This document shows, in pieces, positions 8,165-59,609 of a stretch of DNA of 63,406 nucleotides. Position 1 is the first letter of the stretch; each line of letters begins with the position of its first letter. The DNA comes from Clostridiales bacterium (lineage in GTDB: Bacteria; Bacillota; Clostridia; Peptostreptococcales; Anaerovoracaceae). Below the pieces are notes generated by a model. The model did no database searches. It was not told the origin of the DNA and saw nothing but the letters and a program-made list of their open reading frames with translations. The stretch is from NCBI GenBank assembly GCA_009782285.1, contig WRJK01000002.1:1-63406 (forward strand). The letters are read 5' to 3'. Position numbers and translations under genes: made by a program.

Positions 8165-8349
8165 AAAAGGGCTAATGTATCAACCTTTTTTTCGTAGTCA
8201 CCCATCGCACGTATTACATCGTCTCGATTTCTGCTGTGAAGCACTACCTTGCCGCTTAAAACAGCACCCATGTCATTTTCCTCACAGTCAATCGCGTAAA
8301 TCCATTCTCCGTCAAATTTCTCATTGATCTCTTCAATTGACATATGCAT
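8128..8349 (-). CDS. Small conserved hypothetical protein
   Basis: 73 residues. GGAGG lies 7 nt before the ATG at 8349. The composition looks like a real cytosolic protein: EEINEKFDGEWIYAIDCEE, a VVLHSRNRDDV segment and a terminal YAGNVPEG. It resembles short proteins common in anaerobic bacteria with 'DGEW...SGxVxxHSKxRxxV', which are often encoded beside small aspartyl-protease-like or antitoxin-like genes; that resemblance is from memory and the function is not established. It overlaps the 3' end of the M6 peptidase gene on the opposite strand, and its start lies 50 bp from the divergent promoter of the next operon. Confidence 0.68.
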   Translation of the reverse strand: MHMSIEEINEKFDGEWIYAIDCEENDMGAVLSGKVVLHSRNRDDVIRAMGDYEKKVDTLALFQYAGNVPEGLG

Positions 8350-9333: not shown

Positions 9334-9919
9334 CATGCCTTCGGAACAACAAATCGCAGAGGCGATGGAGAGAATTTTAAGCCGAAAGGAATTTGGCGGC
9401 CAAAGCTATGACCCTATCGGGGACTCGGTCGCCATGTCGGCGATGAATTCACTCCCTAGAATTATGGACTCCATAAGCGGGTTTGGGCTGGCTGTGATGG
9501 TTGTTTTGGTCGCGGCTTTGGTTTTCTGCTTGGCGCGGCTGGTTTTTTTAGAGCGTAGGCGGCGTTTTTCAGACCGTTCAAGGCCGTTGCCTGCCGGGCA
9601 AACAGCTGCGGAAGACCCCTTTGCCCATGCCGAGGAATTGGCTCGCGTGAAGGATTGGGCAGGTGCGCTGCTTGCCTTGTACAGCCTGCATCTGCACACG
9701 CTGCACAATCAAGGCTGGATACTTTGGGACGAAAGCAAGACCGGCATGCAGTACAAATGGGAGCTGGTTGGAAACAGGTACGGGGACGTAGAAGGTTTTG
9801 ATGCTTTCCGCAGGGTGTTCAACAGGGTGCGCTTCGGCGGTTATTCCGAACTGAGGGAGACCTACGAGGCCTTTTTGGCGTACTGCCGCAAGAGGCCGGA
9901 GCGGAGGCAAGCGGCATGA
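9326..9919 (+). CDS. DUF4129 domain protein
   Basis: 197 residues: one transmembrane helix at about 49-72, then a cytosolic or external domain with AxxLARVKDWAGALLALY and LxxxGWILWDESKTGMQYKWEL, the signature region of DUF4129. DUF4129 proteins lie in operons with MoxR ATPases, DUF58 and transglutaminase-like proteins; their biochemical job is not known. It overlaps the next gene by 4 nt (ATGA). Confidence 0.82.
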   Translation: MNNMPSEQQIAEAMERILSRKEFGGQSYDPIGDSVAMSAMNSLPRIMDSISGFGLAVMVVLVAALVFCLARLVFLERRRRFSDRSRPLPAGQTAAEDPFAHAEELARVKDWAGALLALYSLHLHTLHNQGWILWDESKTGMQYKWELVGNRYGDVEGFDAFRRVFNRVRFGGYSELRETYEAFLAYCRKRPERRQAA

Positions 9920-36619: not shown

Positions 36620-37915
36620 GTGTTTAGGAAAATATCAAAAAAATTATTGGATTGGAAAGAATCAGAATACAGAAAACCGTTGATTTTGCAAGGGGCAAGG
36701 CAAACAGGCAAAACATATGCGGTCATGGAATTTGCCAGGACCCAATATGACAATACGGCATATGTCAATTTTGAGTTCGACAAAGAGGCGGCAGCAATTT
36801 TTGCTGAAAGCCTAGATCCACGGGTGCTTATACCCAAAATCGAAGTTTTTACCAAGCAGACGATTACAAAAGGGAGGACGCTCATTTTTTTTGACGAGAT
36901 TCAGCTTTGCCCTTCTGCACTCACATCTTTGAAGTACTTCAACGAATTTGCACCGGATTACCATGTTGTTACTGCGGGAAGCTTGCTTGGAGTGGCAGTC
37001 AGCAGGGAAGCGTACTCGTTCCCTGTTGGAAAAGTGGACAGGTTGACCCTTTACCCCATGGATTTTGAGGAATACCTGATAGCCGCAGACGGCTTAGAGT
37101 TTTCGGCAAAAATAAAAGAATGCTTCGAAGCAAGCATTCCAATGGACAGCTTTTACCACAATATGCTGCTTGAACAATACCGGAGATATCTGGTAGTTGG
37201 CGGCATGCCGGAGTGCGTCGCGAAGTTTCTTGATACGAATGACTATGTATTTGTAAGAAACGTTCAAAAGGCTGTGCTGGAAGACTATCTGGATGACATG
37301 AGCAAGTTCAACACAAAGAGTGAAATCCAGAAAACGAGGCTGACTTACAACAGCATTACGGCGCAGCTTTCCAAAAAAAACACGAGGTTTCAGTACAAGT
37401 TGGTGAAGTCTGGCGGAAGGGCGTCAGAACTGGAAAATGCCGTGGAATGGCTGGTTCTGTCTGGCGTTGCCATTCGTGTGTACGGCATTGACACAGTGAA
37501 AAAACCGCTGGAGAACTACAAGAACATTGACAGTTTTAAAATATTCATGTCCGACACAGGCCTCTTGTGTGCGAAGAACAACGTTCTACATAATGACGTT
37601 TTGTACAACTCGACAGAGCTTCTCGATTTTAAAGGCGGCATGACGGAAAACTACGTTTGCTGCCAGCTTGCCGGCAGTGGGCATGCATGCTACACTTGGC
37701 AAAGCGACGGGGAGGCGGAAATAGATTTCGTCATCCAGCGCGAAGGGAAGCTTATACCGATAGAAGTCAAGTCGGCCGGGAACAGGAAAGCAAAAAGTTT
37801 GAAAACGTATATGCAAAAGTATAAACCCGAGTATGCCATCAAGATATCTGCCGATAACTTCGGCTTTGAAAACGGGATCAAGACTGTTCCGCTTTACGCA
37901 GCGTTCTGCATATAG
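36620..37915 (+). CDS. AAA ATPase with C-terminal DUF4143 domain (copy 1)
   Basis: 431 residues from a GTG start with GAGGTG upstream. Walker A GARQTGKT at about residues 27-34, Walker B LIFFDEIQLCP at about 91-101, TAGSLLGV, and a C-terminal DUF4143 region ending with a restriction-nuclease-like core (EAEIDFVIQREGKLIPIEVKSA). These ATPases are abundant in anaerobes and archaea; some are linked to mobile or defence functions, but the role is unsettled. It is independent of its neighbours (own promoter) and distantly related to the second copy at 58413. Confidence 0.88.
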   Translation: MFRKISKKLLDWKESEYRKPLILQGARQTGKTYAVMEFARTQYDNTAYVNFEFDKEAAAIFAESLDPRVLIPKIEVFTKQTITKGRTLIFFDEIQLCPSALTSLKYFNEFAPDYHVVTAGSLLGVAVSREAYSFPVGKVDRLTLYPMDFEEYLIAADGLEFSAKIKECFEASIPMDSFYHNMLLEQYRRYLVVGGMPECVAKFLDTNDYVFVRNVQKAVLEDYLDDMSKFNTKSEIQKTRLTYNSITAQLSKKNTRFQYKLVKSGGRASELENAVEWLVLSGVAIRVYGIDTVKKPLENYKNIDSFKIFMSDTGLLCAKNNVLHNDVLYNSTELLDFKGGMTENYVCCQLAGSGHACYTWQSDGEAEIDFVIQREGKLIPIEVKSAGNRKAKSLKTYMQKYKPEYAIKISADNFGFENGIKTVPLYAAFCI

Positions 37916-45886: not shown

Positions 45887-47770
45887 TTATTTCGTGTAGT
45901 GAATGAACAGGTCGAGCAGGTCGAGCATGTCAATCACGCCGTCACAGTTGACGTCGCACATGCTTGCTGTGACCGGCCTGCCCCTGGAGTCATTGACTTT
46001 GACCAGGGTGTCCCAATCGGGGCTGTCAGCGTCGAAGCCGCAGTACAGGAGCATGATGCCGAGGTCAAGGGCATCGACGATGTTGTCTTTGTTCAGGTCG
46101 TATTTTGACCACACAAGCTGCTCAATGGTGGTCGTCACTGACGGGATGGCGATCGCTGAGTCAAGGTATACTGTTGTGTCGCCGTCATAGCCCACGGCCC
46201 TGAAGCCTGTCAGCGTCATTGTAGCATCGCCCTGTGCCGTCGGGGCGTATACGAACTTAGCTACGTCAGCCAGTTTCCTTGCCGTGAAACCGGTAGAATC
46301 CCCAGCCTCGTATTTCATGGTGACGGAGCCGCTCCAAGTGCCGTTTCCTGCATACATCCAGAAGATGTCGCTCATTGGCTCAAACCCGTTGATTCCTTCA
46401 ACGCCAATGCCTGCGAGAGGGCCGTCAATCACAAATTCCAGTTCGAGAGCTAGGACGTCTTTTGCGCCGTAAACCTCAAGGGTGTATTCCACGTCGCCTT
46501 CGACTCCGGAAACTTCGAGGGCTTTCAGGCCTGCTTTGGTGGTGTAGTACCAAAGCCCAGTGTTTCTAACCGACTGCACCCATTGGGTATGACGCCCGTT
46601 CGCGCTGGTGTCGTAGTCGCGGCTTGAAGGGCTCATCGTCGGCCTGGTCCCGCTGTACGGAATGTTGTAATAGATGTCCTCGTCTACGGTCAATACTTCG
46701 CCGGTGACGATGCCTTTGCAGAAAGCCATGACGCCCAAGTAGTTCTGCTTGGCGATAGCCAAGGTGTTTGCAGAGATCGCTGCGGTGTTGTTGCCATCTG
46801 ATTCAAAGAACAGCGTCGGGCAGCTGTGGTTGTACGGGTTGATGCCTTCGTAGTTGATGCCGAGGCTCATCCCGGAGACTACGCCACCGAATATTTCGAT
46901 GCCGCTGTACATGTCGATGCACGGCAAAGCGTACGGAGTCGGGAAAGCCATTCTTACGTCATCGGCTATTTCACGGAAAACGTATCCGCCCAGCTGCTTC
47001 ATCTTTGTGTTGTAGTCCTTGATGTAGGGAAGCGTCGGGCCGTCGATGTAGAGGGACGTGCCGATGGACATGGTGATCGGCATCGAACCGCTTACATACC
47101 CCGGTATCCTGCTGCCATTCGTCGGAGTGGTGTTCTTCGATCCTTGGTGATGCAGGTCAAGGGAATAATCAGGCATGATGTCGCAGAAGAGCTTGTAGTA
47201 AGCTTTTGACTCCAATGCGCCGAAAGCTACGCCTTCGCCTGCAAGGTCAACCTTCCAGTCGCGGTTAAGGTCATAGTTGGTGTACTGCCCAGGGCCGGTC
47301 ACTCCAGTCTGGCCAGGGAGGCGGTTTTCTGGCTGGACCACAGTGCCCCTCTGGTTGCGGTCTGACCCGTCCGGATTGTAGATGGGGATGGCATAGATGG
47401 TCAAATCTGCGAGGTCGGCCCTCAGTGCTGCTGACCCTATGTATTCCCATATAAAGTCCATGAAGCCAATAGTGGTGATCCTTTCGTTGCCGTGTATCCT
47501 TGCTTGGATCCAAACAACGATGTCGCCGTCGCCCATCTTGAGCACATAGAGAGGTTTGCCGGATTCGGCAGTGGCATCAGGGCCATACCTGTCCGAAAGC
47601 TTGAACAGCTCGACGTCGCTGCTCAGCGCGTCGATCTCCAGCAGTTGGCTTACCATCAGGTCATGCGTCATTATCGTGGCGCCTATGCCTTGGTCTGGTG
47701 CCGCAAATGCGGTACATGGTGCGATGCAAAGAGCAAGAACAACCACCATGCAAACAAATTTCCTTTTCAT
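45887..47770 (-). CDS. Secreted M14 zinc carboxypeptidase with cohesin-like and dockerin tail (1)
   Basis: 627 residues; AAAGGAGG before ATG 47770; signal peptide to about residue 24 (ending AFA). The M14 peptidase has zinc ligands in ARIHGNE (His93, Glu96) and SLDLHHQG (His207/208), NLNRDW-type substrate site YDLNRDWK, and a candidate catalytic Glu in LFFESDGNN. The cohesin-like domain (about 425-555) and the variant dockerin (about 558-627) follow. M14 enzymes remove C-terminal residues from peptides. First of five consecutive M14 genes; promoter with the TCTAAC/TATAAT architecture. Confidence 0.94.
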   Translation of the reverse strand: MKRKFVCMVVVLALCIAPCTAFAAPDQGIGATIMTHDLMVSQLLEIDALSSDVELFKLSDRYGPDATAESGKPLYVLKMGDGDIVVWIQARIHGNERITTIGFMDFIWEYIGSAALRADLADLTIYAIPIYNPDGSDRNQRGTVVQPENRLPGQTGVTGPGQYTNYDLNRDWKVDLAGEGVAFGALESKAYYKLFCDIMPDYSLDLHHQGSKNTTPTNGSRIPGYVSGSMPITMSIGTSLYIDGPTLPYIKDYNTKMKQLGGYVFREIADDVRMAFPTPYALPCIDMYSGIEIFGGVVSGMSLGINYEGINPYNHSCPTLFFESDGNNTAAISANTLAIAKQNYLGVMAFCKGIVTGEVLTVDEDIYYNIPYSGTRPTMSPSSRDYDTSANGRHTQWVQSVRNTGLWYYTTKAGLKALEVSGVEGDVEYTLEVYGAKDVLALELEFVIDGPLAGIGVEGINGFEPMSDIFWMYAGNGTWSGSVTMKYEAGDSTGFTARKLADVAKFVYAPTAQGDATMTLTGFRAVGYDGDTTVYLDSAIAIPSVTTTIEQLVWSKYDLNKDNIVDALDLGIMLLYCGFDADSPDWDTLVKVNDSRGRPVTASMCDVNCDGVIDMLDLLDLFIHYTK

Positions 47771-47843: not shown

Positions 47844-47877
47844 ATTATAAAATAAAATTGTATGATTACTCGTTAGA
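47844..47877 (-). promoter_or_regulatory. TCTAAC-N22-TATAAT promoter of M14 gene 1
   Basis: Minus strand TCTAAC (47877-47872), exactly 22 bp, TATAAT (47849-47844). No recognisable -35 hexamer. A second TCTAAC lies upstream at 48008-48003. The rest of the gap 47771-48086 holds only the terminator of the next gene. Confidence 0.65.
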
Positions 47878-48015
47878 TGTCGAAAATAATAAGAATTACT
47901 TTTTTTGTTTTTCTATTTTCAAAAATTTTCGTCTAGTCGGTATGCGATTCATACGAATGCTTAGTTTTTCAACTTTGACAACAATTCGCCACTGACAAAA
48001 TTGTTAGAATAATGT

Positions 48016-48053
48016 GTCAAAACCGACGAAATTGTCGCTTCGTCGGTTTTGAC
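48016..48053. terminator. Terminator hairpin after M14 gene 2
   Basis: A 15-bp perfect stem (48016-48030 with 48039-48053; core ACCGACGAA/TTCGTCGGT) with an 8-nt loop, located 34 nt beyond the stop of the gene at 48087. Confidence 0.8.
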
Positions 48054-48086
48054 GTCATACACTATACAAGATGTGTCTTTTGAATG

Positions 48087-50087
48087 CTATTTAGTGTAGT
48101 GAATGAACAGGTCAAGCAGGTCTAGCATGTCGATCACGCCGTCACAGTTCACGTCGCACATGCTTGCTGTGACTGGCCTGCCCCTGGAGTCGTTGACCTT
48201 GACCAAATTTGCCCAATCGGGACTGTCGCTGTCGAAGCCGCAGTACAGGAGCATTATGCCGAGGTCGAGGGCATCGACGATGTTGTCCTTGTTCAGGTCG
48301 TATTTTGACCATATGAGCTGCTCAATGGTTGTCGTGGCTGAAGGGATAGTGATTTCAGACCTGATGTACTTTGTCGTGTCGCCGTCGATACCAACAACCC
48401 TAAAGCCTGTCAGCGTCATAGCCGCTTCACCTTCTGCAATCGGAGCGTAGACGAACTTGGCGATGTCAGACAGTTTCTTGTGGGTGTACCCGGTTGAGTC
48501 GCCGCCTGCCTCGTATTTCATAGTGACGGAACCCTTCCAAGTGTCGTTTCCTCCGTAAACCCAGAAGATTTCGGTCATAGGTTCAAAGCCATTGATGCCT
48601 TCAACTCCGACGCCTGCGATCGGGCCGTTGATGTTGAATTCCAGCTCGACAGCCAGCACGTCCTTCGGCTGGAATATCTCAACGTTGAATTCTACATTGT
48701 CTTCAACCCCAGAAACCGCATCTGCCTTGATGCCTGCTTTCACATAATCCAAAGGCGAGAAATCTACCGGCGGGAGCCTGTGGTTCCTGTCAGTGCCATA
48801 AGTTGTGGAAATCGCGCTGAAGGTTCCGGAAGTTGCATAGGGCATGTCCCAATAGGTGTCAGGGTCATAGGTGTCAAAATCGTCATTTGCTATCATGTAG
48901 CAGACGGCTTTTGCGCCGTAATAGCTCTGCCATGCTATAGCGATGTACCTTGCTGTCAGGTTCGTGGTGTTGTTGTTTGTCTGCTGCTCAACTTCCCAGA
49001 ACCAGGCTGGGCAGGTGTACTGGTACGGGTTCCAGTTGTTGTAGTTGACTCCCAGCATCATGCCGGAAACAGCTCCGCCGTACACGTCTACGCCAGGATA
49101 GATGTTGATAGGTACGTGAGTGTAGGGCTGGCCGGCGTTTGTGCCTGAAGGATACACGAACAGATCTCTTACGTCGCCGGCAATCTGATCGAAAACGTAC
49201 TTTGTCTGCTGTTTAATCTGAACTTCGTAGTCCCTAAGGAAAGGCAGAGTAATGGCATAAAAGATGTTGTTGCTGGTAGCGCTGGCACTGAGCAAGCCCT
49301 CGCCAACCGGATCTGCCACTGCAGGGGTCCTAGGCCCACTGGCGTTCAGCGCGGTGCCCAAGGACATGGTATAGGGCAGGGAGGGGGTGCCGAAGCTGAC
49401 GGTGTTCTGGTGGTGCATGTCGATAGCTATGTCAGGCATGATGTCTGCCCATAGCCTGAAATACGCCCTTGATTCTTTCGCTACAAAGGCCACGGGGTTC
49501 CCTCTCAGCCCGAAATTCCAGTCGCGGTTCAAGTCCAAATTGCTTGAACGCACTGTGCCGTTTGCGTTCCAAACACAGGTGCCCCTCTGGGCGTTGTTGT
49601 AGTTGGGTACGCCGGCACTGGTGTAGCTGGCCCTTGAGCCGTCCACGTTGTAGATGGGGATGGCGTAGATGGTTAAATCCTCAAGGTCAGCCCTGAGGTT
49701 TTCGTCCTTCGCGTATTCCCACAGCAATTCCATCAATCCCATGGATGTCAGCTTCTCGTTGCCGTGGATCTGGGCTTCCAGCCATACAACCTTGTCACCG
49801 TGGCCAGCCTTCACAAAGTAAAGAGGCATTCCTGCTTCGCTGGTAAACTCAGGATTTCCGAACACATCTGCGATGGTGCATACTTCCATGTCGTCGCAGA
49901 GTTCAGCCATGGCGTGGATCTGGTTCACCATGACGTCCCAAGTCATTATCCTGTTACCGACTGCCAAGCCGGCGTTGGACGGCTTGTTAAGTGCAATCGA
50001 CGATGCGAAAGCTGTGCATGGTATCAGAACTAGAGCAATAACAAGCAGCATGCACAATAGTTTTTGTGATAACTTGTTGGTTTTCAT
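48087..50087 (-). CDS. Secreted M14 zinc carboxypeptidase with cohesin-like and dockerin tail (2)
   Basis: 666 residues, signal peptide ending near residue 29. Zinc ligands in AQIHGNE (His108, Glu111) and AIDMHHQN (His225/226); LDLNRDWNFG; candidate Glu in WFWEVEQQ. Cohesin-like (about 460-590) and dockerin (about 597-666) follow. It resembles genes 4 and 5 more than gene 1 (ADPVGEGLLSAS insert). It begins only 70 nt after gene 3 stops, with a perfect hairpin in between, so it is partly cotranscribed at most; no own promoter is evident. Confidence 0.93.
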   Translation of the reverse strand: MKTNKLSQKLLCMLLVIALVLIPCTAFASSIALNKPSNAGLAVGNRIMTWDVMVNQIHAMAELCDDMEVCTIADVFGNPEFTSEAGMPLYFVKAGHGDKVVWLEAQIHGNEKLTSMGLMELLWEYAKDENLRADLEDLTIYAIPIYNVDGSRASYTSAGVPNYNNAQRGTCVWNANGTVRSSNLDLNRDWNFGLRGNPVAFVAKESRAYFRLWADIMPDIAIDMHHQNTVSFGTPSLPYTMSLGTALNASGPRTPAVADPVGEGLLSASATSNNIFYAITLPFLRDYEVQIKQQTKYVFDQIAGDVRDLFVYPSGTNAGQPYTHVPINIYPGVDVYGGAVSGMMLGVNYNNWNPYQYTCPAWFWEVEQQTNNNTTNLTARYIAIAWQSYYGAKAVCYMIANDDFDTYDPDTYWDMPYATSGTFSAISTTYGTDRNHRLPPVDFSPLDYVKAGIKADAVSGVEDNVEFNVEIFQPKDVLAVELEFNINGPIAGVGVEGINGFEPMTEIFWVYGGNDTWKGSVTMKYEAGGDSTGYTHKKLSDIAKFVYAPIAEGEAAMTLTGFRVVGIDGDTTKYIRSEITIPSATTTIEQLIWSKYDLNKDNIVDALDLGIMLLYCGFDSDSPDWANLVKVNDSRGRPVTASMCDVNCDGVIDMLDLLDLFIHYTK

Positions 50088-50112
50088 TCCCTTTCACTCC
50101 TTTGCTTTTTTT

Positions 50113-50139
50113 GCCGGGCTCCCTGATAAGGAGCCCGGC
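50113..50139. terminator. Perfect hairpin between M14 genes 3 and 2
   Basis: GCCGGGCTCC (50113-50122) pairs with GGAGCCCGGC (50130-50139) around 7 nt. In the direction of the peptidase genes it is followed by A's, not U's, so it may stabilise the 3' end or attenuate rather than stop transcription. Confidence 0.6.
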
Positions 50140-50157
50140 TTGTTATATTTTCAACGA

Positions 50158-53100
50158 CTACTTCGTGTAGTGTATGAACAGGTCGAGAAGGTCAAGCATG
50201 TCAATCAGGCCGTCTCCGTTGACGTCGCACATGCTTGCCGTGACGCCGTTGCCCCAAGCGTCATTGACTTTTACTAAAGTGCCCCAATCAGCGGAATCGC
50301 TGTCGAAGCCGCAGTAAAGCAGCATGATGCCTAGGTCTAGCGCGTCAACAATACCGTCCCTGTTGAGGTCGTATTTCGACTTGGCTATGATCGAAGTAGC
50401 TGTGCCTTCGCCAATGGCGGTGGTCAGGTACCTGGTCGTGTCTCCAAAGAGGCCGACCGCCCTTGCGCCTGTCAAAGCCATAGTGGCGTTGCCGTAGCCT
50501 TTTGCGCCGTAGGTGAACACTGCGATGTCAACAGGACCTGCAGCCGTAAGCCCTGTTGTAGAGCCCGACGGAAGATCCAATGTCACTGTGCCCTTCCAGA
50601 GGTTGTCCCCGGCGTAAATCCAAAGGATGTTGTTCATGTTGTCAAAGCCGTTTAGCCCCTCAATGCCTTTCCCCGCCAGCATGTTGCCGTCGATGGTGAA
50701 TTCCAGCTCGACTGCCAGAACGTCCACTGCATCGCGGAGCGATACAGTGTATGCCACATCGTCGCTGACGTAGGTAACTGTATCAGTGCTAAGGTCTACG
50801 TACACGCAGGCAAGCTCAATGTCCGCAGCGAACGCGGAGTGTGCCGCGCCGCCGTCGAAGTTGATGACCAGCTCGGCGGTGTCTGTGCCAAGGTTCAAGT
50901 CGGCCGGATCGAAGGTGGCAGTGTAGCTGCCGCCGCCAAGGGAGTCCACTGCAACGGGCAGGCCGCCAACAGTTGCGGTCACAGCTGCGCCGTCAATAAC
51001 CCCAACCGTGCCGTCTGTGTTGTGTGTGGAGAACGGTACGGTGACTGTGCCCACTGGCCCCCAAGCTTTGTCGAAGTCAAAGGTGCTGGATATGGCAGTC
51101 GTCATCACGAAGTCTACATCTGAGTACGTGAGCTTGCGATCCATAACTTTCACATTGTTGGTCGTGTCGTATTTGCCGGATGAACTGGCGACGATCTTGT
51201 AACCGCCATTGTCGCCGTATGAGCTCTGGTGAGGTTGCTCTGACGGGTTGACCGACCAGTCATAGGCACCGTCTGCTATGTCGAGGACAGCCCTTCTTGT
51301 CCTGTCGTAGGTGTTTGCCAAGATGGTGCCGCTTGTGTTTCTCAGCCGAGCCTTAGCAACAACAGAAAGGTTGAGCTGTGCATCGAGCAGGTTGCCACTG
51401 GTGTCAACGACTTTGCCGGTGATATGCGAGGCGTATTCCCTGGCAGCGTCCATGTTAAGCATGAAAGCGCCAATGTTCCTTCTGAAATACCACTGCACTC
51501 CGCCAGCCCCTTCATTCACTAGGTCGCGGCTTAGAATCGAAACTTCGCATTTGCCGTTCTTTTGAATGTACTCGTCGATTTCCCTGCAGTAAGCGTCAAG
51601 GGCGCCCGCAACTGGAATTGTTATAGCCTGCGCGGCAGCGTCTGTTCCAAACGCCGGCCTCCAAAGGCCTATTGTTCCGGAATTGTTCTTCGAAAGGATA
51701 ACTGCGACTGCGCCCGCATCCTGCGCCGCCCTCAAAGCTGCGGAGGTGTTGGCGTTGCTGCTTCCAATGTGCATTATCAGTATTTTGCCTTCGAGCTGGT
51801 CAGCAACCGCTTGGACTTTTGCAGCAGTTCCGGCTTTGTTGGCGTCGGTGTAAGTGTCAAAGGGTCCCGTTATGACGACCGCATCAGCCGTGATTGTTGC
51901 CGCAGGTGCCCTGGTTCCTGTAAGCGTCGTTGGGTACTGCAGGTTGAACCACCTCTGGTTGCCGTAATAATCTTTAAACTCGGTCGTGGCGCCGTACCTG
52001 CCGTAGCTGGTGTCCCCGTCGGTGTCCCCGTTGTAGGGGCGTGCGAAGTTGACAGTGTTGTGCTCAAAGCAGTAGCTGAGGGAACCCAATGCACCGTACA
52101 TGTAGTCGTCAAAACCGCCGTTGGTGGCATAAAGGCCTCTTGACCTGTAATCGTTGTACAGGTTGATGTCAGCCATCCTGCGGCCTAGGTCTATGGCGTC
52201 CTGGCTGGGAAGATCGTTGTTCTGCCCCCATGGCGACAGCACCAGTTCGCTGTAAGTGTGATGGGTAATTGAAGTCATAATCATGTTGTTGAGGGCTATG
52301 GTCATCTTTGCTTCGTTTTCAGGTTCGCTCAAGGGCGCAACGCCACGGTATGTGTCGCTTGAGATCGTGCTGGCTGAACCATCGTTGTTGCCCCAATCGT
52401 AAGGATAGTTCCTGTTAAGGTCAACACCCCAGTTGCTTGCGCTGGTAGAGCCGTTGGTGTTCACGTTCTTGCGCCAAGAGCCGGGCTGGCTGGTTCCGCT
52501 GACCCGCGTGTGGTCATAGTGGGCGCCGTCCGGGTTCGACATGGGCACGAAGAATATCCTGGTGGTGTCCAAAAGCTCTGTTACCTGTGGGTCGATCTGG
52601 TATTTTGTAAGCAGAAACCAAATAGTGTTCATGAGCATCTCGGACGCCGGCCATTCCCTTGCATGGTCAGGGCTGACTTGGAAAGAGCAAGGCTTGCCGT
52701 CGTTGGCACCCGGAGTGCTGGTCACTTCAAGGCAGTAAATTGGGAAACCTTGGAAAGACGCGCCAATCACGTGCTTTTTGCAGAGCTCCGGATAAGTTTC
52801 GGCCAGATAGTTCACCTCGGAATAGTATTCCGTTACAGTTCTGAAACCGCGGCGCTCCGGATGCCCGTACTGCTCATTCATCAAAACGCCGGTCGGATCA
52901 AAATATTTGTCGTATTCGCGAGTCAAGTCGGGCCTTCTTTGTGGCAAGTTAGTCGAGCTTAACGGCCATGTATTCGCGATTGGCTGCTCGTCAGCCAAGG
53001 CTGCTGCGCCTGGCTCGTACCTGTATCCACCGAAGTCTTCAGGGCGTATGCCTATTTCGTTGACCACAGTGTACTCGATGTTGTTCTCAGCAATGTAGTT

Positions 53101-53337
53101 CATGACATAGTCCGAGGCCACCATATGGAAAGTGATGCCGATGTCGTCATCAATTTCATGGCCCAGGATGTCAAGGCCAGCCTGCCAAATAACGTCAGCC
53201 TCGTCCCAAGTGGGAACTGTCACCGCCAAAAGCGGCACTCCGCTTGCCTCAGCCGGTGCGCTGTTCGATGCTGTAACTGTGACTGCGCCGGTGAACGCGA
53301 GCGAAAGAACCAGTAATAAAACCAATAATTTCTTCAT
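50158..53337 (-). CDS. Large secreted M14 carboxypeptidase with PA, cohesin-like and dockerin modules (3)
   Basis: 1059 residues, ATG 53337, signal peptide to about residue 22. Carboxypeptidase-T-like M14 domain with zinc ligands in SPDHAREWPASE (His225, Glu228) and SITHHTYSE (His359/360), DLNRNYPYDWG and GAHYDHTR. A PA-type insert (about 480-600, with AVAVILSKN), a carboxypeptidase-regulatory/CNA-type beta domain (about 640-730), a further beta module (TFDFDKAWGPVGTVTVP, about 750-860), cohesin-like (about 865-985) and the dockerin (about 988-1059). It is closely related to the partial gene at the right edge. The largest and probably the most versatile peptidase of the cluster. Confidence 0.94.
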   Translation of the reverse strand: MKKLLVLLLVLSLAFTGAVTVTASNSAPAEASGVPLLAVTVPTWDEADVIWQAGLDILGHEIDDDIGITFHMVASDYVMNYIAENNIEYTVVNEIGIRPEDFGGYRYEPGAAALADEQPIANTWPLSSTNLPQRRPDLTREYDKYFDPTGVLMNEQYGHPERRGFRTVTEYYSEVNYLAETYPELCKKHVIGASFQGFPIYCLEVTSTPGANDGKPCSFQVSPDHAREWPASEMLMNTIWFLLTKYQIDPQVTELLDTTRIFFVPMSNPDGAHYDHTRVSGTSQPGSWRKNVNTNGSTSASNWGVDLNRNYPYDWGNNDGSASTISSDTYRGVAPLSEPENEAKMTIALNNMIMTSITHHTYSELVLSPWGQNNDLPSQDAIDLGRRMADINLYNDYRSRGLYATNGGFDDYMYGALGSLSYCFEHNTVNFARPYNGDTDGDTSYGRYGATTEFKDYYGNQRWFNLQYPTTLTGTRAPAATITADAVVITGPFDTYTDANKAGTAAKVQAVADQLEGKILIMHIGSSNANTSAALRAAQDAGAVAVILSKNNSGTIGLWRPAFGTDAAAQAITIPVAGALDAYCREIDEYIQKNGKCEVSILSRDLVNEGAGGVQWYFRRNIGAFMLNMDAAREYASHITGKVVDTSGNLLDAQLNLSVVAKARLRNTSGTILANTYDRTRRAVLDIADGAYDWSVNPSEQPHQSSYGDNGGYKIVASSSGKYDTTNNVKVMDRKLTYSDVDFVMTTAISSTFDFDKAWGPVGTVTVPFSTHNTDGTVGVIDGAAVTATVGGLPVAVDSLGGGSYTATFDPADLNLGTDTAELVINFDGGAAHSAFAADIELACVYVDLSTDTVTYVSDDVAYTVSLRDAVDVLAVELEFTIDGNMLAGKGIEGLNGFDNMNNILWIYAGDNLWKGTVTLDLPSGSTTGLTAAGPVDIAVFTYGAKGYGNATMALTGARAVGLFGDTTRYLTTAIGEGTATSIIAKSKYDLNRDGIVDALDLGIMLLYCGFDSDSADWGTLVKVNDAWGNGVTASMCDVNGDGLIDMLDLLDLFIHYTK

Positions 53338-53361
53338 GTTAAATCTTCCTCCTGTTATCTA

Positions 53362-53397
53362 TTTATATGTGTGGCACACGATGGGAACTCGTGCGCC
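53362..53397 (-). promoter_or_regulatory. Putative promoter with overlapping inverted repeat, M14 gene 3
   Basis: Minus strand TATAAA (53367-53362) upstream of the gene. An imperfect inverted repeat GGCACACGA (53373-53381) / TCGTGCGCC (53389-53397) covers the spacer and the -35 position, so it could be an operator. No TCTAAC site here, unlike genes 1, 4 and 5. Confidence 0.4.
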
Positions 53398-53414
53398 GGC
53401 TATTTTTTTCAAAC

Positions 53415-53443
53415 AAACCGGCGAAGCCGCGCTCCGCCGGTTT
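53415..53443. terminator. Hairpin after M14 gene 4
   Basis: AAACCGGCG (53415-53423) pairs with CGCCGGTTT (53435-53443), located 29 nt beyond the stop of the gene at 53473. Confidence 0.65.
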
Positions 53444-53472
53444 AATACTCTAAACTGCGCGCGGTACGCTAA

Positions 53473-55497
53473 TTATTTGGTGTAGTGGATGAACAGGTCG
53501 AGCAGGTCGAGCATGTCGATCACGCCGTCAAAATTGACGTCGCACATGCTTGCTGTAACTGGCCTGCCCCTGGAATCATTGACCTTGACCAAGTTGGCCC
53601 AATCTGCGCTGTCGCTGTCGAAGCCGCAGTACAGGAGCATGATGCCGAGGTCGAGGGCGTCGACGATGTTGTCCTTGTTCAGGTCGTACTTTGACCAGAC
53701 GAGCTGTTCGATGACTGTATTGGCTGTCGGTTTGGTGATTTCGGAGTTGATGTACTTTGTAGTGTCGCCGTCAATCCCTACAACATTGAAGCCCGTCAGC
53801 GTCATGGATGCATTCCCCTCGGCTGTTGGCGCAAAGGCGAATTTGGCAATGTCTGACAGTTTCTTGTGGGTGTATCCGGTCGAATCGCCGCCCGCTTCGT
53901 ATTTCATGGTGACAGAGCCTCTCCATTTGCTATCCCCTGCATAAATCCAGAAGATGTCGGTCAAGGGCTCGAAGCCGTTGATGCCTTCTACGCCGACGCC
54001 TGCCATCGGGCCGTCGATAACGAATTCGAGTTCAACAGCGAGGACGTCGGTGGGCTGGAATATCTCCACAGTGAAATCCACGTTCTCCTCAACGCCGGAA
54101 ACTTCATCAACCTTGATGCCGGCTTTCACGGGATCCATGAATGAGAAATCAACCGGTGCAACCCTGAGATCCCTGTCAACGCCGTACACTGTCGTTAGCG
54201 AATTCCTGTTCCCTGAGGTCATGTGCTGAACCTTCCAGTAGTCGTCCGGATCGTAGTTCTTGTAGTCTTCGGTGATGAACGTCCTGCAGAAAGCCTTAAT
54301 GTAGTAATAGACCTGCAGAGCGATGCCCTTGTACCTGTTCGTCATGTTCGTGCTGGCGTTGAACTGGTACTCGTGCTCGGTGTAGAATCCCGGGCAGCTC
54401 CATCTGTACGGGTTCCAGTCGTTGTAGTTTGGCGCCAGCATGACATTTGAGACCGTGACGCCGTAAATGTCGACGCCGGGGTAAAGGTCGATGCACGGGC
54501 CAACGTAAACGTCGCCTACGCGGGCACCGTTGGCTGTCGCCTGGCTGGTGCTATTGGGGGCTGAGCTGGTGTAGACGTGCAGATTCTTTACGTCTTCCCA
54601 CATCTTGTCGTATGACGCTTTGTGGACTTGCTTAATAATGTCGTTGTATTGCCCATTCTTGATAAATGGCAGCGTCACGGCATAGGGGATTGTTGCGGTA
54701 TTGCCGGTCAGCAAGCCTGCGCCGATGGGGTCAGCAATCGCACGGACGTCCGGGCCGCTTGGCATAAGGGCTATCCCAAGGGAGAACGTTATGGGGTTGC
54801 TGCCGACGACGTAGCTGCCCTGGTGGTGCAGGTCAAGGGCGTAGTCGGGCATGATTTCGCACCACAGTTTGTAGTAACCCAGAGTCGTTTTTGCTTGGAA
54901 GCCCAAGCCTTCGCCTCGCTGGTTCGTCTTCCAGTCGCGGTTGAGGTCAAAGCTGGTGCTGGTAATGCCGTTCCTTTGAACAACTGTGGCACCCCTTATG
55001 CCGCCGCGCCCTGCAACGCCCGTCGGGCTTATGTTGCTGCTCTCAGAGCCGCCGTCAACATTGTAGAAAGGTATGCAGTACAAGGTCAGTCCAGCGAACT
55101 CTTCCCTGAGGGCTGCGTCTTTCGCGTACTCCCACAGGAACTCCATCATGCCTACGGTGGTCAGCTTCTCGTTGCCGTGCATTTGAGCCGACATGTAGAT
55201 GACTGTGTCGCCGTTCCCCACCTTTGCAAAATAGAGTGGGAAGCCGGCGTCGCTGACGAATTCGGGGCCAAACCAGTCTGCCACGGTGTAGACGTCGATT
55301 TCGTCGCACATGTCGCCGATCTGTTTGAGCTGGCTTACCATGTCCTGCCAGCCCAGGATCCTTTGCCCTGCCATCTGGCCGGTGTTCATCTGCCAGTCGA
55401 TCGTTAGTTGTGACGCAAATGCAGTGCAAGGGGCAGCAACCATCATTGCGACAACAAACAGGCAAATCAGCTTTCTTGACAACTTACTTCTTCTCAT
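53473..55497 (-). CDS. Secreted M14 zinc carboxypeptidase with cohesin-like and dockerin tail (4)
   Basis: 674 residues, AGGAGG before ATG 55497, signal peptide to about residue 29. Zinc ligands in AQMHGNE (His107, Glu110) and ALDLHHQG (His224/225); SFDLNRDWK; candidate Glu in FYTEHEYQ. Cohesin-like (about 470-600) and dockerin (about 605-674; here the second loop reads DVNFDGVIDMLD instead of DVNCDG). It is very similar to gene 5 throughout, indicating recent duplication. Its promoter has two tandem TCTAAC sites. Confidence 0.94.
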   Translation of the reverse strand: MRRSKLSRKLICLFVVAMMVAAPCTAFASQLTIDWQMNTGQMAGQRILGWQDMVSQLKQIGDMCDEIDVYTVADWFGPEFVSDAGFPLYFAKVGNGDTVIYMSAQMHGNEKLTTVGMMEFLWEYAKDAALREEFAGLTLYCIPFYNVDGGSESSNISPTGVAGRGGIRGATVVQRNGITSTSFDLNRDWKTNQRGEGLGFQAKTTLGYYKLWCEIMPDYALDLHHQGSYVVGSNPITFSLGIALMPSGPDVRAIADPIGAGLLTGNTATIPYAVTLPFIKNGQYNDIIKQVHKASYDKMWEDVKNLHVYTSSAPNSTSQATANGARVGDVYVGPCIDLYPGVDIYGVTVSNVMLAPNYNDWNPYRWSCPGFYTEHEYQFNASTNMTNRYKGIALQVYYYIKAFCRTFITEDYKNYDPDDYWKVQHMTSGNRNSLTTVYGVDRDLRVAPVDFSFMDPVKAGIKVDEVSGVEENVDFTVEIFQPTDVLAVELEFVIDGPMAGVGVEGINGFEPLTDIFWIYAGDSKWRGSVTMKYEAGGDSTGYTHKKLSDIAKFAFAPTAEGNASMTLTGFNVVGIDGDTTKYINSEITKPTANTVIEQLVWSKYDLNKDNIVDALDLGIMLLYCGFDSDSADWANLVKVNDSRGRPVTASMCDVNFDGVIDMLDLLDLFIHYTK

Positions 55498-55548
55498 TTT
55501 TAATTACCTCCTAATAAAAATAGTGCAACTCAACTTGAGTTGACTAAT

Positions 55549-55582
55549 ATTATATAACATAATTGTTAGAGGTAGCGTTAGA
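55549..55582 (-). promoter_or_regulatory. TCTAAC-N22-TATAAT promoter of M14 gene 4
   Basis: Minus strand TCTAAC (55582-55577), exactly 22 bp, TATAAT (55554-55549), with a second TCTAAC at 55570-55565 (12 bp apart). A further pair with 11-bp spacing is at 55721-55716 and 55710-55705. The remainder of the gap 55498-55843 has only the hairpin of the next gene. Confidence 0.7.
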
Positions 55583-55764
55583 AATAATACAGCAATGGAA
55601 ATTTTATTGATATTTCCATTCAACTGCAACGGCTGCCGTTTCCCGAGAGTCCCATTGTAAAGCCGCTGTTTGCAAGCGTTTGCGCCTGATATCAATTTCT
55701 GTGCGTTAGATTATTGTTAGATTTATCTGCATGATTGAAATTATTTGAAATTCAGATTAAAACG

Positions 55765-55802
55765 CTGCCTACGAAAACAGTCTCCATTGTTTCCGTAGGC
55801 AG
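55765..55802. terminator. Hairpin after M14 gene 5
   Basis: CTGCCTACG (55765-55773) pairs with CGTAGGCAG (55794-55802), with partial pairing inside. It lies 41 nt past the stop of the gene at 55844. Confidence 0.7.
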
Positions 55803-55843
55803 TTGTTTCGTCATAAAAAGATCAACCTATTTGTTATTTAAGC

Positions 55844-57862
55844 TTATTTCGTATAGTGAATGAACAGGTCAAGCAGGTCGAGCATGTCGATTACGCCGTC
55901 GCAGTTTACGTCACACATGCTTGCTGTAACTGGCCTGCCCCTGGAATCATTGACCTTGACCAAGTTGGCCCAATCTTCGCTGTCTGCATCGAAGCCGCAG
56001 TACAGCAGCATAATGCCAAGGTCAAGGGCATCAACGATGTTGTCCTTGTTCAGGTCGTATTTTGACCATACAAGCTGCTCTATGACTGTATTAGCTGTCG
56101 GCTTGGTGATTTCAGAGTTGATGTACTTTGTCGTGTCGCCGTCAATCCCTACAACATTAAAGCCTGTCAGTGTCATGGACGCATCGCCTTGGGCCGTTGG
56201 CGCAAAGACGAAGGTGGCAATGTCGGATATCTTCCTGTGCGTGTAGCCGGTCGAATCCCCGCCTGCCTCGTATTTCATGGTGACAGCGCCTTTCCACATG
56301 CCGGCTCCTGCGTATGTCCAGAAGATGTCGGTCAAAGGCTCGAAGCCGTTGATGCCTTCTACACCGATGCCAGCCATCGGGCCGTCAATGACAAATTCGA
56401 GCTCAACAGCCAGCACGTCGACGGGCTGGAATATCTCGACAGTGAATTCCACGTTGCCTTCTACGCCGGTAACTGCATCAGCCTTGATGCCGGACTTCAC
56501 TGGCTCCATGAACGACCAATCGATAGGCGGCTGGTCGATCCTCCTGTCAATGCCGTACACTGTGTTGATGGAGCACCTTGAGCCACTGGTCATGTGCTGC
56601 ACCAAGTAGTAATCTTCCGGATCGTAGCCCTTGTAGTCTTCCGACAGGATCGTCCTTGCGGCAGCCAAGGTGTAGTAGTAGGTCTGCAAGGCGATGCCCT
56701 TGTGCCTGTTGTTAATGTTCGTGCTGGCGTTGAACTGGTACTCCGACTCAACGTAGAACGACGGGCAGCTCCACCTGTACGGGTTCCAGTCGTTGAAATT
56801 AAGGCCCATCATGGTGCCGGCTACGCCGACGCCGTAGAGGTCAAGGCCGGGGTAAAGGTCGATTGGAGAATTTACGTAAACGTCGCCGATGGCAGCGCCG
56901 TTGGCGGCTGCCTGGGTTGTGCTATTCGGGCTTGAGCTGGTATAAACGTAAAGCTTCCTTATGTCTTCGCTTATTTTGTCGTAAATGGACTTCTGTATTT
57001 GCTTGCACATGTCGTCGTAGAGCCCATTTTTGATGAAAGGCAGCGTCACAGCATAAGGTATTGTAGCCACGTGGCTAGTGTAATAACCTGCCGCAATTGG
57101 GTCAGCCACTGCGGGAACCCTAGAGCTGCTGGGCATCAGAGCCATTCCGAGGGAATAGGTTATGGGGTTGTTGTTAACGATGTAGCTGCCTTGGTGGTGG
57201 TTGTCGATTGAAAAATCAGGCATAACATCGCACCACAGCCTGTAATAGCCCTGGGTCGTCTTGGCTTGGAAGCCCATGCCTTCGCCTCGCTGGTTCATTT
57301 TCCAGTCGCGGTTCAGGTCAAAGCTGGTGCTCTGAGTAGTGCCGTCTGCTCTCCAGACCGTGCAGCCCCTGATGCCGCCTCGTCCAGCAATGCCCCTTGT
57401 GCTTATCGCCGTTGCCTCGGCTCCGCCATCAACGTTGTACATAGGTACGCAGTAGAATGTCAGATCCTTAAACTCATCTCTAAGGGCAGCACTCTTCGCA
57501 TATTCCCACATGAATTCCATCAACCCAACGGTAGTCAGCTTCTCGTTGCCGTGCATCTGAGCCGTAATCCATATGATGGTGTCGCCATCCCCTAATTTAG
57601 CAAAATAGAGGGGGAACCCGGCGTCGCTCAGGAACTCAGGCCCAAACCAGTCGGATACAGTCGCAACTTCGATCTGATCGCAGAGGTCAGCCATCTGATT
57701 CATCTGGTTCACCATTTCCACCCAGCCCATGATCCTGGATCCGTTCATTTGGTTGGTGTTCATCTGATAGTCAATGGTGAACTGGGACGCAAATGCTGAA
57801 CATGGCGCGGCAATCAATGCCACTACAAACAGCATGCATACGATCTTTCTTGTTTTTCTCAT
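55844..57862 (-). CDS. Secreted M14 zinc carboxypeptidase with cohesin-like and dockerin tail (5)
   Basis: 672 residues, GGAGG before ATG 57862, signal peptide to about residue 26. Zinc ligands in AQMHGNE (His104, Glu107) and SIDNHHQG (His222/223), with SFDLNRDWK and candidate Glu in FYVESEYQ. Cohesin-like (about 470-600) and dockerin (about 603-672) follow. It is the closest paralogue of gene 4. It is first to be transcribed from the 550-bp gap 57863-58412, which otherwise contains no gene. Confidence 0.94.
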   Translation of the reverse strand: MRKTRKIVCMLFVVALIAAPCSAFASQFTIDYQMNTNQMNGSRIMGWVEMVNQMNQMADLCDQIEVATVSDWFGPEFLSDAGFPLYFAKLGDGDTIIWITAQMHGNEKLTTVGLMEFMWEYAKSAALRDEFKDLTFYCVPMYNVDGGAEATAISTRGIAGRGGIRGCTVWRADGTTQSTSFDLNRDWKMNQRGEGMGFQAKTTQGYYRLWCDVMPDFSIDNHHQGSYIVNNNPITYSLGMALMPSSSRVPAVADPIAAGYYTSHVATIPYAVTLPFIKNGLYDDMCKQIQKSIYDKISEDIRKLYVYTSSSPNSTTQAAANGAAIGDVYVNSPIDLYPGLDLYGVGVAGTMMGLNFNDWNPYRWSCPSFYVESEYQFNASTNINNRHKGIALQTYYYTLAAARTILSEDYKGYDPEDYYLVQHMTSGSRCSINTVYGIDRRIDQPPIDWSFMEPVKSGIKADAVTGVEGNVEFTVEIFQPVDVLAVELEFVIDGPMAGIGVEGINGFEPLTDIFWTYAGAGMWKGAVTMKYEAGGDSTGYTHRKISDIATFVFAPTAQGDASMTLTGFNVVGIDGDTTKYINSEITKPTANTVIEQLVWSKYDLNKDNIVDALDLGIMLLYCGFDADSEDWANLVKVNDSRGRPVTASMCDVNCDGVIDMLDLLDLFIHYTK

Positions 57863-58067
57863 TTTTTGTTTACCTCCAAATAAAATAAGTAAGTTTGATT
57901 AACATTTCGTTTTCCAGGCTTTGCGCCCTTTTTCCATCGCTGGTTTCCGCCAGCGCCAAGACCGGCACTGCCTACTGCCCCCCTTTCACTTGCCGATGCT
58001 GCGTTAATTTGACAACCATTTTCCTGTATATAAAGAATTTTCTCAAACGCCGATATGTTCCCAAAAC

Positions 58068-58101
58068 ATTATATTCTATAGCCGTATTGATAGCAGTTAG
58101 A
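58068..58101 (-). promoter_or_regulatory. TCTAAC-N22-TATAAT promoter of M14 gene 5
   Basis: Minus strand TCTAAC (58101-58096), exactly 22 bp, TATAAT (58073-58068). Another TCTAAC is at 58215-58210. The -35 position is non-consensus. The leader to the ATG is about 200 nt. Confidence 0.65.
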
Positions 58102-58355
58102 TATGCGCAAAATAGAATTTAATTTCGCTGTTTAAAAAATCTTTTCAGATTCATGGCGGTTGTAGAACCGCTGAAATTCAAGGGTTTCTCCGGCCAATGT
58201 ATCATTATTGTTAGATTAATGCCGGATAGCTTGAGCAATCTTGAATTGAAAGAAAATTTAAACCCCTGATTCCGACATGTTCAACGTTTATTCACCGCAA
58301 AAATGTGAACCAGCTGCTGTGCGCAGAAAAGTTTTTGCCTCATTGCTGCAAATAC

Positions 58356-58384
58356 TTGACGACATGGGCAGCTTTTGTTATAAT
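58356..58384 (+). promoter_or_regulatory. Promoter of the second AAA/DUF4143 gene
   Basis: TTGACG (58356-58361), 17-bp spacer, TATAAT (58379-58384), 28 nt before the GTG start. Confidence 0.75.
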
Positions 58385-58412
58385 TACAGCAATTACGAAT
58401 GGGGGTGAGCTT

Positions 58413-59609
58413 GTGGTTCAAAGACAAGCCTATCTTGATTCCCTTGTAAGCTTTCGGGACAAGATGTTGATAAAGGTCGTTACAGGCATCAGGCGGTGCG
58501 GAAAATCCACGTTGCTAGAGCTGTATCAGGATTATTTGCGCTCAGATGGTGTCGCTGGCGAGCAAATCATTTCTGTCAACCTTGAAGAAGGTGAATTTGA
58601 TGAAATAGAAACCTACAAGCAGCTGTACAGCTTCATAAATGAGAAGATCATTCCGAACCAGAAGATGTATATCTTCATTGACGAAGTGCAGCGTGTGGCC
58701 GACTTTCAGAAGTGCGTTGACAGCCTATATGTGAAAAAGAACTGCGATGTGTATATAACAGGCTCAAATGCTTACCTCCTCAGCGGTGAACTGGCGACCC
58801 TGCTTTCAGGGCGTTATGTTGAAATCAAGATGCTCCCGCTGTCGTTCAAGGAATATGTATCTGTGTTTCCCGATGATGCGAATCGCGAACGCTTGTATAT
58901 GGACTATATCCAAAACAGCGCGTTTCCCTATGCGTTGGAAATCGCAAAACCTAAAGACAGGAGGCTGTATTTGCAAGGCATCTATGACACCATCGTGCTT
59001 AAAGACATTGTTTCCCGCAGGAAATTCCCCAACACCGCCATGCTAAAAAGCGTTTCCCGCTTTATGTTTGACAATATCGGAAACATGTGTTCCACCAAGA
59101 AAATCGCGGACACTATGACTTCAGCTGGGCGTAAAATCGCCGTTCACACGGTCGAGAGCTATCTGACCGCACTTACAGATTGCTTCATCCTCTACCAAAT
59201 CGGGCGGTACGACGTTAAAGGGAAACAATACTTGAAAACAGGCGACAAGTATTACGCCGCCGACATCGGCTTGCGATACGCTCTGCTCGGAACGAAGAAG
59301 GCAGACATGGGGCATATCCTTGAAAACGTAGTGTTCCTTGAACTGTTGCGCCGTGGTTATGAGATTCACATCGGCAAGGTCGGCAGAACCGAGGTGGACT
59401 TTATCGCTATCGGCGATGAGGGCGAGGAATACTATCAAGTCGCGTACACCGTCATAGATACGGACGGCACAACCCTGCGCCGCGAACTTGCGCCGCTTGA
59501 ATCCATAGGCGACCACAATCCGAAGTTTCTCCTGACGATGGACAACACGCCGGTCACTTCGCACAACGGCATCAAACAGATAAACGCACTCGACTGGATG
59601 TTGAAGTAG
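58413..59609 (+). CDS. AAA ATPase with C-terminal DUF4143 domain (copy 2)
   Basis: 398 residues from GTG 58413, 3 nt after a GGGGGTGAG site; the frame is open further upstream but that part lies over the promoter. Walker A GIRRCGKST at about 21-29, Walker B YIFIDEVQRV at about 88-97, TGSNAYLLSGELATLLSGRYVEI, and a DUF4143/nuclease-like C-terminus (RTEVDFIAIGDEGEEYYQVAYTV). Only 9 nt separate its stop from the remnant of hsdS on the other strand, so it may have come in with the event that truncated the R-M locus. Confidence 0.88.
   Translation: MVQRQAYLDSLVSFRDKMLIKVVTGIRRCGKSTLLELYQDYLRSDGVAGEQIISVNLEEGEFDEIETYKQLYSFINEKIIPNQKMYIFIDEVQRVADFQKCVDSLYVKKNCDVYITGSNAYLLSGELATLLSGRYVEIKMLPLSFKEYVSVFPDDANRERLYMDYIQNSAFPYALEIAKPKDRRLYLQGIYDTIVLKDIVSRRKFPNTAMLKSVSRFMFDNIGNMCSTKKIADTMTSAGRKIAVHTVESYLTALTDCFILYQIGRYDVKGKQYLKTGDKYYAADIGLRYALLGTKKADMGHILENVVFLELLRRGYEIHIGKVGRTEVDFIAIGDEGEEYYQVAYTVIDTDGTTLRRELAPLESIGDHNPKFLLTMDNTPVTSHNGIKQINALDWMLK

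Follow-up and report, generated by a model that had tools for sequence, protein, structure and literature searches.

Does a short hexamer, TCTAAC, that stands at one fixed distance from a TATAAT element in front of several peptidase genes mark the binding site of a shared activator? This question is raised by a cluster of M14 peptidase genes from an uncultured Clostridiales bacterium of the family Anaerovoracaceae, which lies in the 63,406-nucleotide (nt) stretch that was analysed (contig WRJK01000002.1 of assembly GCA_009782285.1, positions 1 to 63,406; hereafter the window). As the first-pass annotation had reported, TCTAAC-N22-TATAAT occurs there three times on the minus strand, at 47844-47877, 55549-55582 and 58068-58101. 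The existence of a promoter class with its own regulon is well supported and is regarded as highly probable. The reading put forward here, to which a probability of about 60% is given, is that a SARP-type activator, by replacing recognition of the -35 element, switches on a small regulon of dockerin-bearing peptidases and glycosidases.

Arrangement of boxes and -10 elements

The signal lies in the arrangement and not in the hexamer, as only the former is enriched: the bare TCTAAC is found 11 times in the window against 18 expected, while 100 shuffles of the window yielded no match to TCTAAC-N22-TATAAT. In the whole genome of 3.1 Mb, five exact matches were obtained compared with one for the reversed pattern, and all five are located upstream of genes for secreted dockerin enzymes, the two outside the window belonging to a secreted dockerin protein gene (C18:4462) and a secreted M14-dockerin gene (C164:2180). 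The upstream regions of the dockerin genes (estimated as about 115 genes with 400 base pairs (bp) each) make up less than 1% of both strands, so this placement is far beyond chance. A sister species of the same genus, Clostridiales bacterium isolate Nt197P4bin16, whose name we take to denote a termite-gut assembly, contains two exact matches, both upstream of relatives of the C18 gene. The C18-type promoters of the two species are only partly alike outside the boxes, with the boxes, the -10 element and parts of the leader standing out. All these statistics come from pattern searches and retrieved stretches in two genomes, the assemblies of which are both incomplete.

When the spacing was left free between 10 and 40 bp, the genome and its sister gave a list of 13 matches. 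Six of these have a spacing of exactly 22, six others range from 18 to 39, and the remaining one, with a spacing of 10 (55549-55570), comes from the inner TCTAAC copy of the window site at 55549, a site that has the N22 spacing itself. A refined pattern derived from the sites known by then, YCTAAC-N8-WWAY-N10-TANNNT, was found at 11 places in the two genomes, nine of which were judged genuine, against none for its reverse. As this pattern was built from sites already in hand, the empty control weighs more than the number of matches. For TCTAAC-N22-TATAAT, a further 97 genomes from the family and order showed no excess, with 44 matches against 71 for the reversed control by hand count.

Several candidates were discarded. 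A loose pattern with one mismatch gave 20 matches against 34 in the control and thus stays at background, the site at C7:6295 being the only genuine one among the extras. The orthologous pair C33/C250 was rejected because its CCTAAC complements a Shine-Dalgarno sequence (GTTAGGAGG) of the opposite strand. The matches on C17, C23, C14, C218 and C1/C336 differ in their spacings and were taken as background, with those on C17, C23 and C218 inspected. Pairs of TCTAAC with an 11 bp period also occur elsewhere. One of them is kept in both species (C37/C271; L181:1501-1517 and L174:1501-1517) directly 5' of the Shine-Dalgarno sequence of a gene with ferredoxin-like cysteine motifs, in a register unlike that of the nine promoters; another, on C313, is directly upstream of an unidentified gene. 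Neither shows the register of box and -10 element.

Each of the nine promoters consists of a proximal box next to the -10 element and a distal box further upstream, and none of them has a TTGACA-like hexamer at a spacer of 16-18 bp, which bears out the earlier observation of a poor -35 element. If the -10 element is placed at -12 to -7, the proximal box spans -40 to -23. Autocorrelation places a second half site in the proximal boxes exactly at +12 (mean of 4.1 of 6 letters) and in the distal boxes at +11 (mean of 4.2 of 6), with all other shifts at 2.9 or below. All nine promoters carry a distal copy that points the same way, 113-139 bp 5' of the proximal one and mostly as a pair with an 11 bp period; no copy in the reverse orientation was found in the stretches examined around them.

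In the window, where all elements are on the minus strand, promoter 47844 (47844-47877) is made up of TCTAAC at 47872-47877, the half site TCATAC at 47860-47865 and TATAAT at 47844-47849, with a distal TCTAAC at 48003-48008, 131 bp upstream of the proximal copy. Promoter 55549 (55549-55582) has two perfect proximal copies, at 55577-55582 and 55565-55570, in front of TATAAT at 55549-55554, and its distal box TCTAACAATAATCTAAC at 55705-55721 has a period of 11 bp and lies 128 and 139 bp upstream. In promoter 58068 (58068-58101), TCTAAC at 58096-58101 is accompanied by the weak half site CAATAC at 58084-58089 and by TATAAT at 58068-58073; the distal box TCTAACAATAATGATAC at 58199-58215 holds TCTAAC 114 bp upstream and a degenerate partner 11 bp on. 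The additional copies noticed earlier at 110-150 bp are therefore confirmed, and the two pairs described as spaced 11-12 bp are real, with 12 bp between 55577 and 55565 and 11 bp between 55716 and 55705.

Genes of the probable regulon

The three promoters in the window do head M14 genes as proposed, and all three products combine an M14 domain with a C-terminal Dockerin_1 domain. The cluster comprises five genes on the minus strand, the proteins of which all score at or above both Pfam cut-offs, Peptidase_M14 and Dockerin_1. Gene 1 (45887-47770, 627 amino acids) is downstream of promoter 47844, gene 4 (53473-55497, 674 amino acids) of promoter 55549 and gene 5 (55844-57862, 672 amino acids) of promoter 58068, from which it is separated by a leader of about 200 nt. 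Gene 2 (48087-50087, 666 amino acids) and gene 3 (50158-53337, 1059 amino acids, with a PA domain in addition to M14 and dockerin) have no box of their own. Judging from the gene spacing, gene 4 may head a transcript that reaches genes 3 and 2, with the caveat that hairpins are found between the genes of this run.

The first-pass annotation spoke of a peptidase regulon, which is correct as far as M14 peptidases are included but too narrow, since the same promoter is shared by the large dockerin proteins encoded on C18, C63 and C229. No Pfam catalytic domain was matched in these proteins. A structure search with the C229 protein, the only one searched, matched its catalytic part to alpha-galactosidase and to the N-acetylgalactosaminidase (GalNAc-ase) acting on blood group A, which suggests that the predicted catalytic parts of all three are GH36-like. 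As a speculation, peptidases together with GalNAc-type glycosidases would suit the breakdown of glycoproteins. The regulon does not cover every M14-dockerin gene, as the M14 gene at C9:32948 and the M14 genes on C176 of the sister species are without a box. Dockerin matches are numerous in this genome, with 133 in the 3.1 Mb assembly, many of those on the C16 stretches falling within one frame of 870 residues.

In clostridia with cellulosomes, the genes are regulated by SigI/RsgI, the LacI-type GlyR3 and XydS/R. The system described here resembles these in coordinating secreted dockerin enzymes and differs in that only a small M14/GH36 subset, out of many dockerin genes, is served by an activator box joined to a -10 element of the housekeeping type. 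This suggests that subsets of dockerin enzymes are switched separately in a lineage whose genome holds over a hundred dockerin matches and for which no regulatory study was found. For this uncultured gut lineage, the regulon is now defined, a consensus is available and a candidate activator can be named; the nine promoters form a probably co-regulated set that can be tested.

Candidate activator and its rivals

A common activator, as postulated in the first-pass annotation, is well supported by the exact spacing, the lack of a -35 element, the tandem half sites, the conservation in the sister species and the placement in front of dockerin genes. Its probable identity is suggested by the site at C7:6295, which together with its distal pair TCTAACGTTATTCTAAC directly follows the gene for a regulator of 391 amino acids. 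The sister species has this array (C284:8331 with the pair at 8195) behind the orthologous gene as well, and the two proteins are 94% identical. Both Trans_reg_C (1.7e-6) and BTAD (8.7e-15) are matched above the Pfam cut-offs, and a weak, degenerate GGDEF-like domain follows the winged helix and BTAD at the C-terminal end. The regulator matches AfsR by sequence, and its predicted fold (mean predicted local distance difference test score of 83) matches chains of EmbR and AfsR with E-values of about 3e-11 to 1e-9, the AfsR chains being those in initiation complexes; GGDEF domains were matched as well. A SARP/AfsR-type protein is thus the best and a reasonably probable candidate for the activator. 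Only two BTAD genes were found in each of the two genomes. The divergent promoter of the second one (C5/C172) is free of TCTAAC boxes, and no TCTAAC pairs were seen beside the retrieved loci of other BTAD proteins of the family, which are about 20-36% identical.

Downstream of the regulator-side site, a stretch of about 450 nt is conserved in both species (L143:8370-8830 on the plus strand; L113 on the minus strand, downstream of 6295). It is apparently non-coding and contains one hairpin with a compensatory change as well as a terminator-like stem.

In Streptomyces, SARP repeats are spaced by 11 or 22 bp, with 8 bp between the 3' repeat and the -10 element, and the repeats of the afs box occupy -40 to -30 and the next 11 bp at a promoter with a poor -35 element (PMC10936776). 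The boxes described here are nearly in the AfsR register, from which the proposal of activator-assisted polymerase recruitment is drawn: as with AfsR at Streptomyces afsS, direct repeats one helical turn apart extend from about -40 over the -35 region to a point close to the -10 element, and SARP systems likewise combine a poor -35 element with a regulator made of winged helix and BTAD (PMC10936776). The activator, equipped with a winged helix of the OmpR class, would bind the direct repeat TCTAAC-N6-YCWAAC head-to-tail, cover about -40 to -23 and so stand in for the -35 element at 10 bp from the consensus -10 element, where it would recruit the housekeeping RNA polymerase to promoters that lack a -35. 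The distal direct repeat would strengthen or gate activation, probably through co-operativity in binding or through looping of the DNA, and the regulator encoded beside the C7 (C284) site would act in trans on targets elsewhere in the genome. In contrast to AfsR and afsS, most of the promoters have a consensus TATAAT and all nine a further distal box, the host is of the Clostridia type, degradative enzymes take the place of antibiotic genes, and the candidate regulator has a degenerate GGDEF-like domain.

A number of observations weigh against this assignment. The proximal period is 12 bp (the distal one is 11), the gap between hexamer and -10 element is 10 bp and not the 8 bp of SARP promoters, and two of the nine promoters (58068 and C164) have a weak second half site in the proximal box. 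At the regulator-side site, the -10 element is TATACT, which is weaker than TATAAT, and the non-coding stretch and a WG-repeat gene intervene before the dockerin gene. The regulator is linked to the boxes in one neighbourhood, kept in two related species, and no TCTAAC pair is near the gene of a relative that is 50% identical (L163). The genome also encodes nine OmpR-type response regulators with Trans_reg_C.

One of these nine, phosphorylated by a sensor kinase, could bind the 11-12 bp repeats instead. OmpR/PhoB sites consist of head-to-tail winged-helix half sites about one turn apart that replace the -35 element, and both the period and the position of the repeats would suit tandem binding as in the pho box. 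The half-site sequence differs from the pho box, however, and none of the located response regulator genes adjoins any of the nine sites, whereas the SARP-type gene adjoins one in both species. Since linkage of gene and site is not obligatory, its absence only lowers the standing of this explanation, which appears rather unlikely. The description of the boxes as OmpR/PhoB-type sites thus holds for the class of winged helix, and a SARP/AfsR-type protein is a better candidate than a phosphorylated response regulator.

Recent duplication, in which the M14 genes were copied together with their upstream DNA and share no regulator, would account for three sites heading related genes in one cluster. 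It is largely refuted by conservation confined to the boxes: the promoters are dissimilar elsewhere, the leaders are unequal in length, genes 2 and 3 of the cluster are without boxes, and these boxes are also found in front of unrelated GH36-like genes and at the regulator-side site. Equally slight is the probability that TCTAAC is an element of a promoter for an alternative sigma factor. The constant distance to the -10 element would fit, but the gap of 22 bp exceeds the usual spacers between -35 and -10, the -10 element matches the housekeeping consensus, and repeated TCTAAC copies form direct repeats of 11-12 bp, also 113-139 bp upstream, where a sigma contact is not expected. Chance coincidence of short motifs, a fair concern for a pattern first read by eye without a control and built on a hexamer that is not enriched, is ruled out by the empty shuffles, reversed controls of 0-1, conservation in two genomes and distal copies in nine of nine promoters.

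If the activator is a SARP-type protein, SARP control, known from antibiotic clusters, also reaches extracellular degradation in Clostridia; no paper tying TCTAAC to a bacterial regulator and no study of clostridial SARP proteins was found in the literature searched. A wider picture is only tentatively drawn. In it, dockerin peptidases and glycosidases of the GalNAc type, with their genes dispersed over the genome, would answer to a SARP-type activator from outside the Actinobacteria, by way of a distal 11 bp box looping to a proximal 12 bp box that replaces the -35 element; a gut symbiont might in this manner run a programme for degrading glycoproteins.

Other conserved elements

Rfam gave no match at the gathering thresholds, and scans by E-value returned only matches below them. 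A leader of about 75 nt, GGTTAACCACGTTCCC..AAAAACGAGGCTGAAAA(GTCG-AACCCCAA-CGAC)AGAACAAAAGAGGC, is conserved near the start of at least nine genes for secreted proteins in both species (L155:14689-14789 and 9774-9874, minus strand; L004:1325-1425, minus strand; L062, L063, L065, L090, L147 and L149). It is not linked to the TCTAAC boxes and has no Rfam family; several of its host genes are dockerin or M14 genes, and it contains a small covarying hairpin.

The window also holds two genes for AAA/DUF4143-type ATPases by Pfam (36620-37915 and 58305-59609, both on the plus strand). One gene of this type separates the C7 site from the WG-repeat gene, which is not so in the sister species, and by resemblance further ones are scattered in the genome (L113 and L145).
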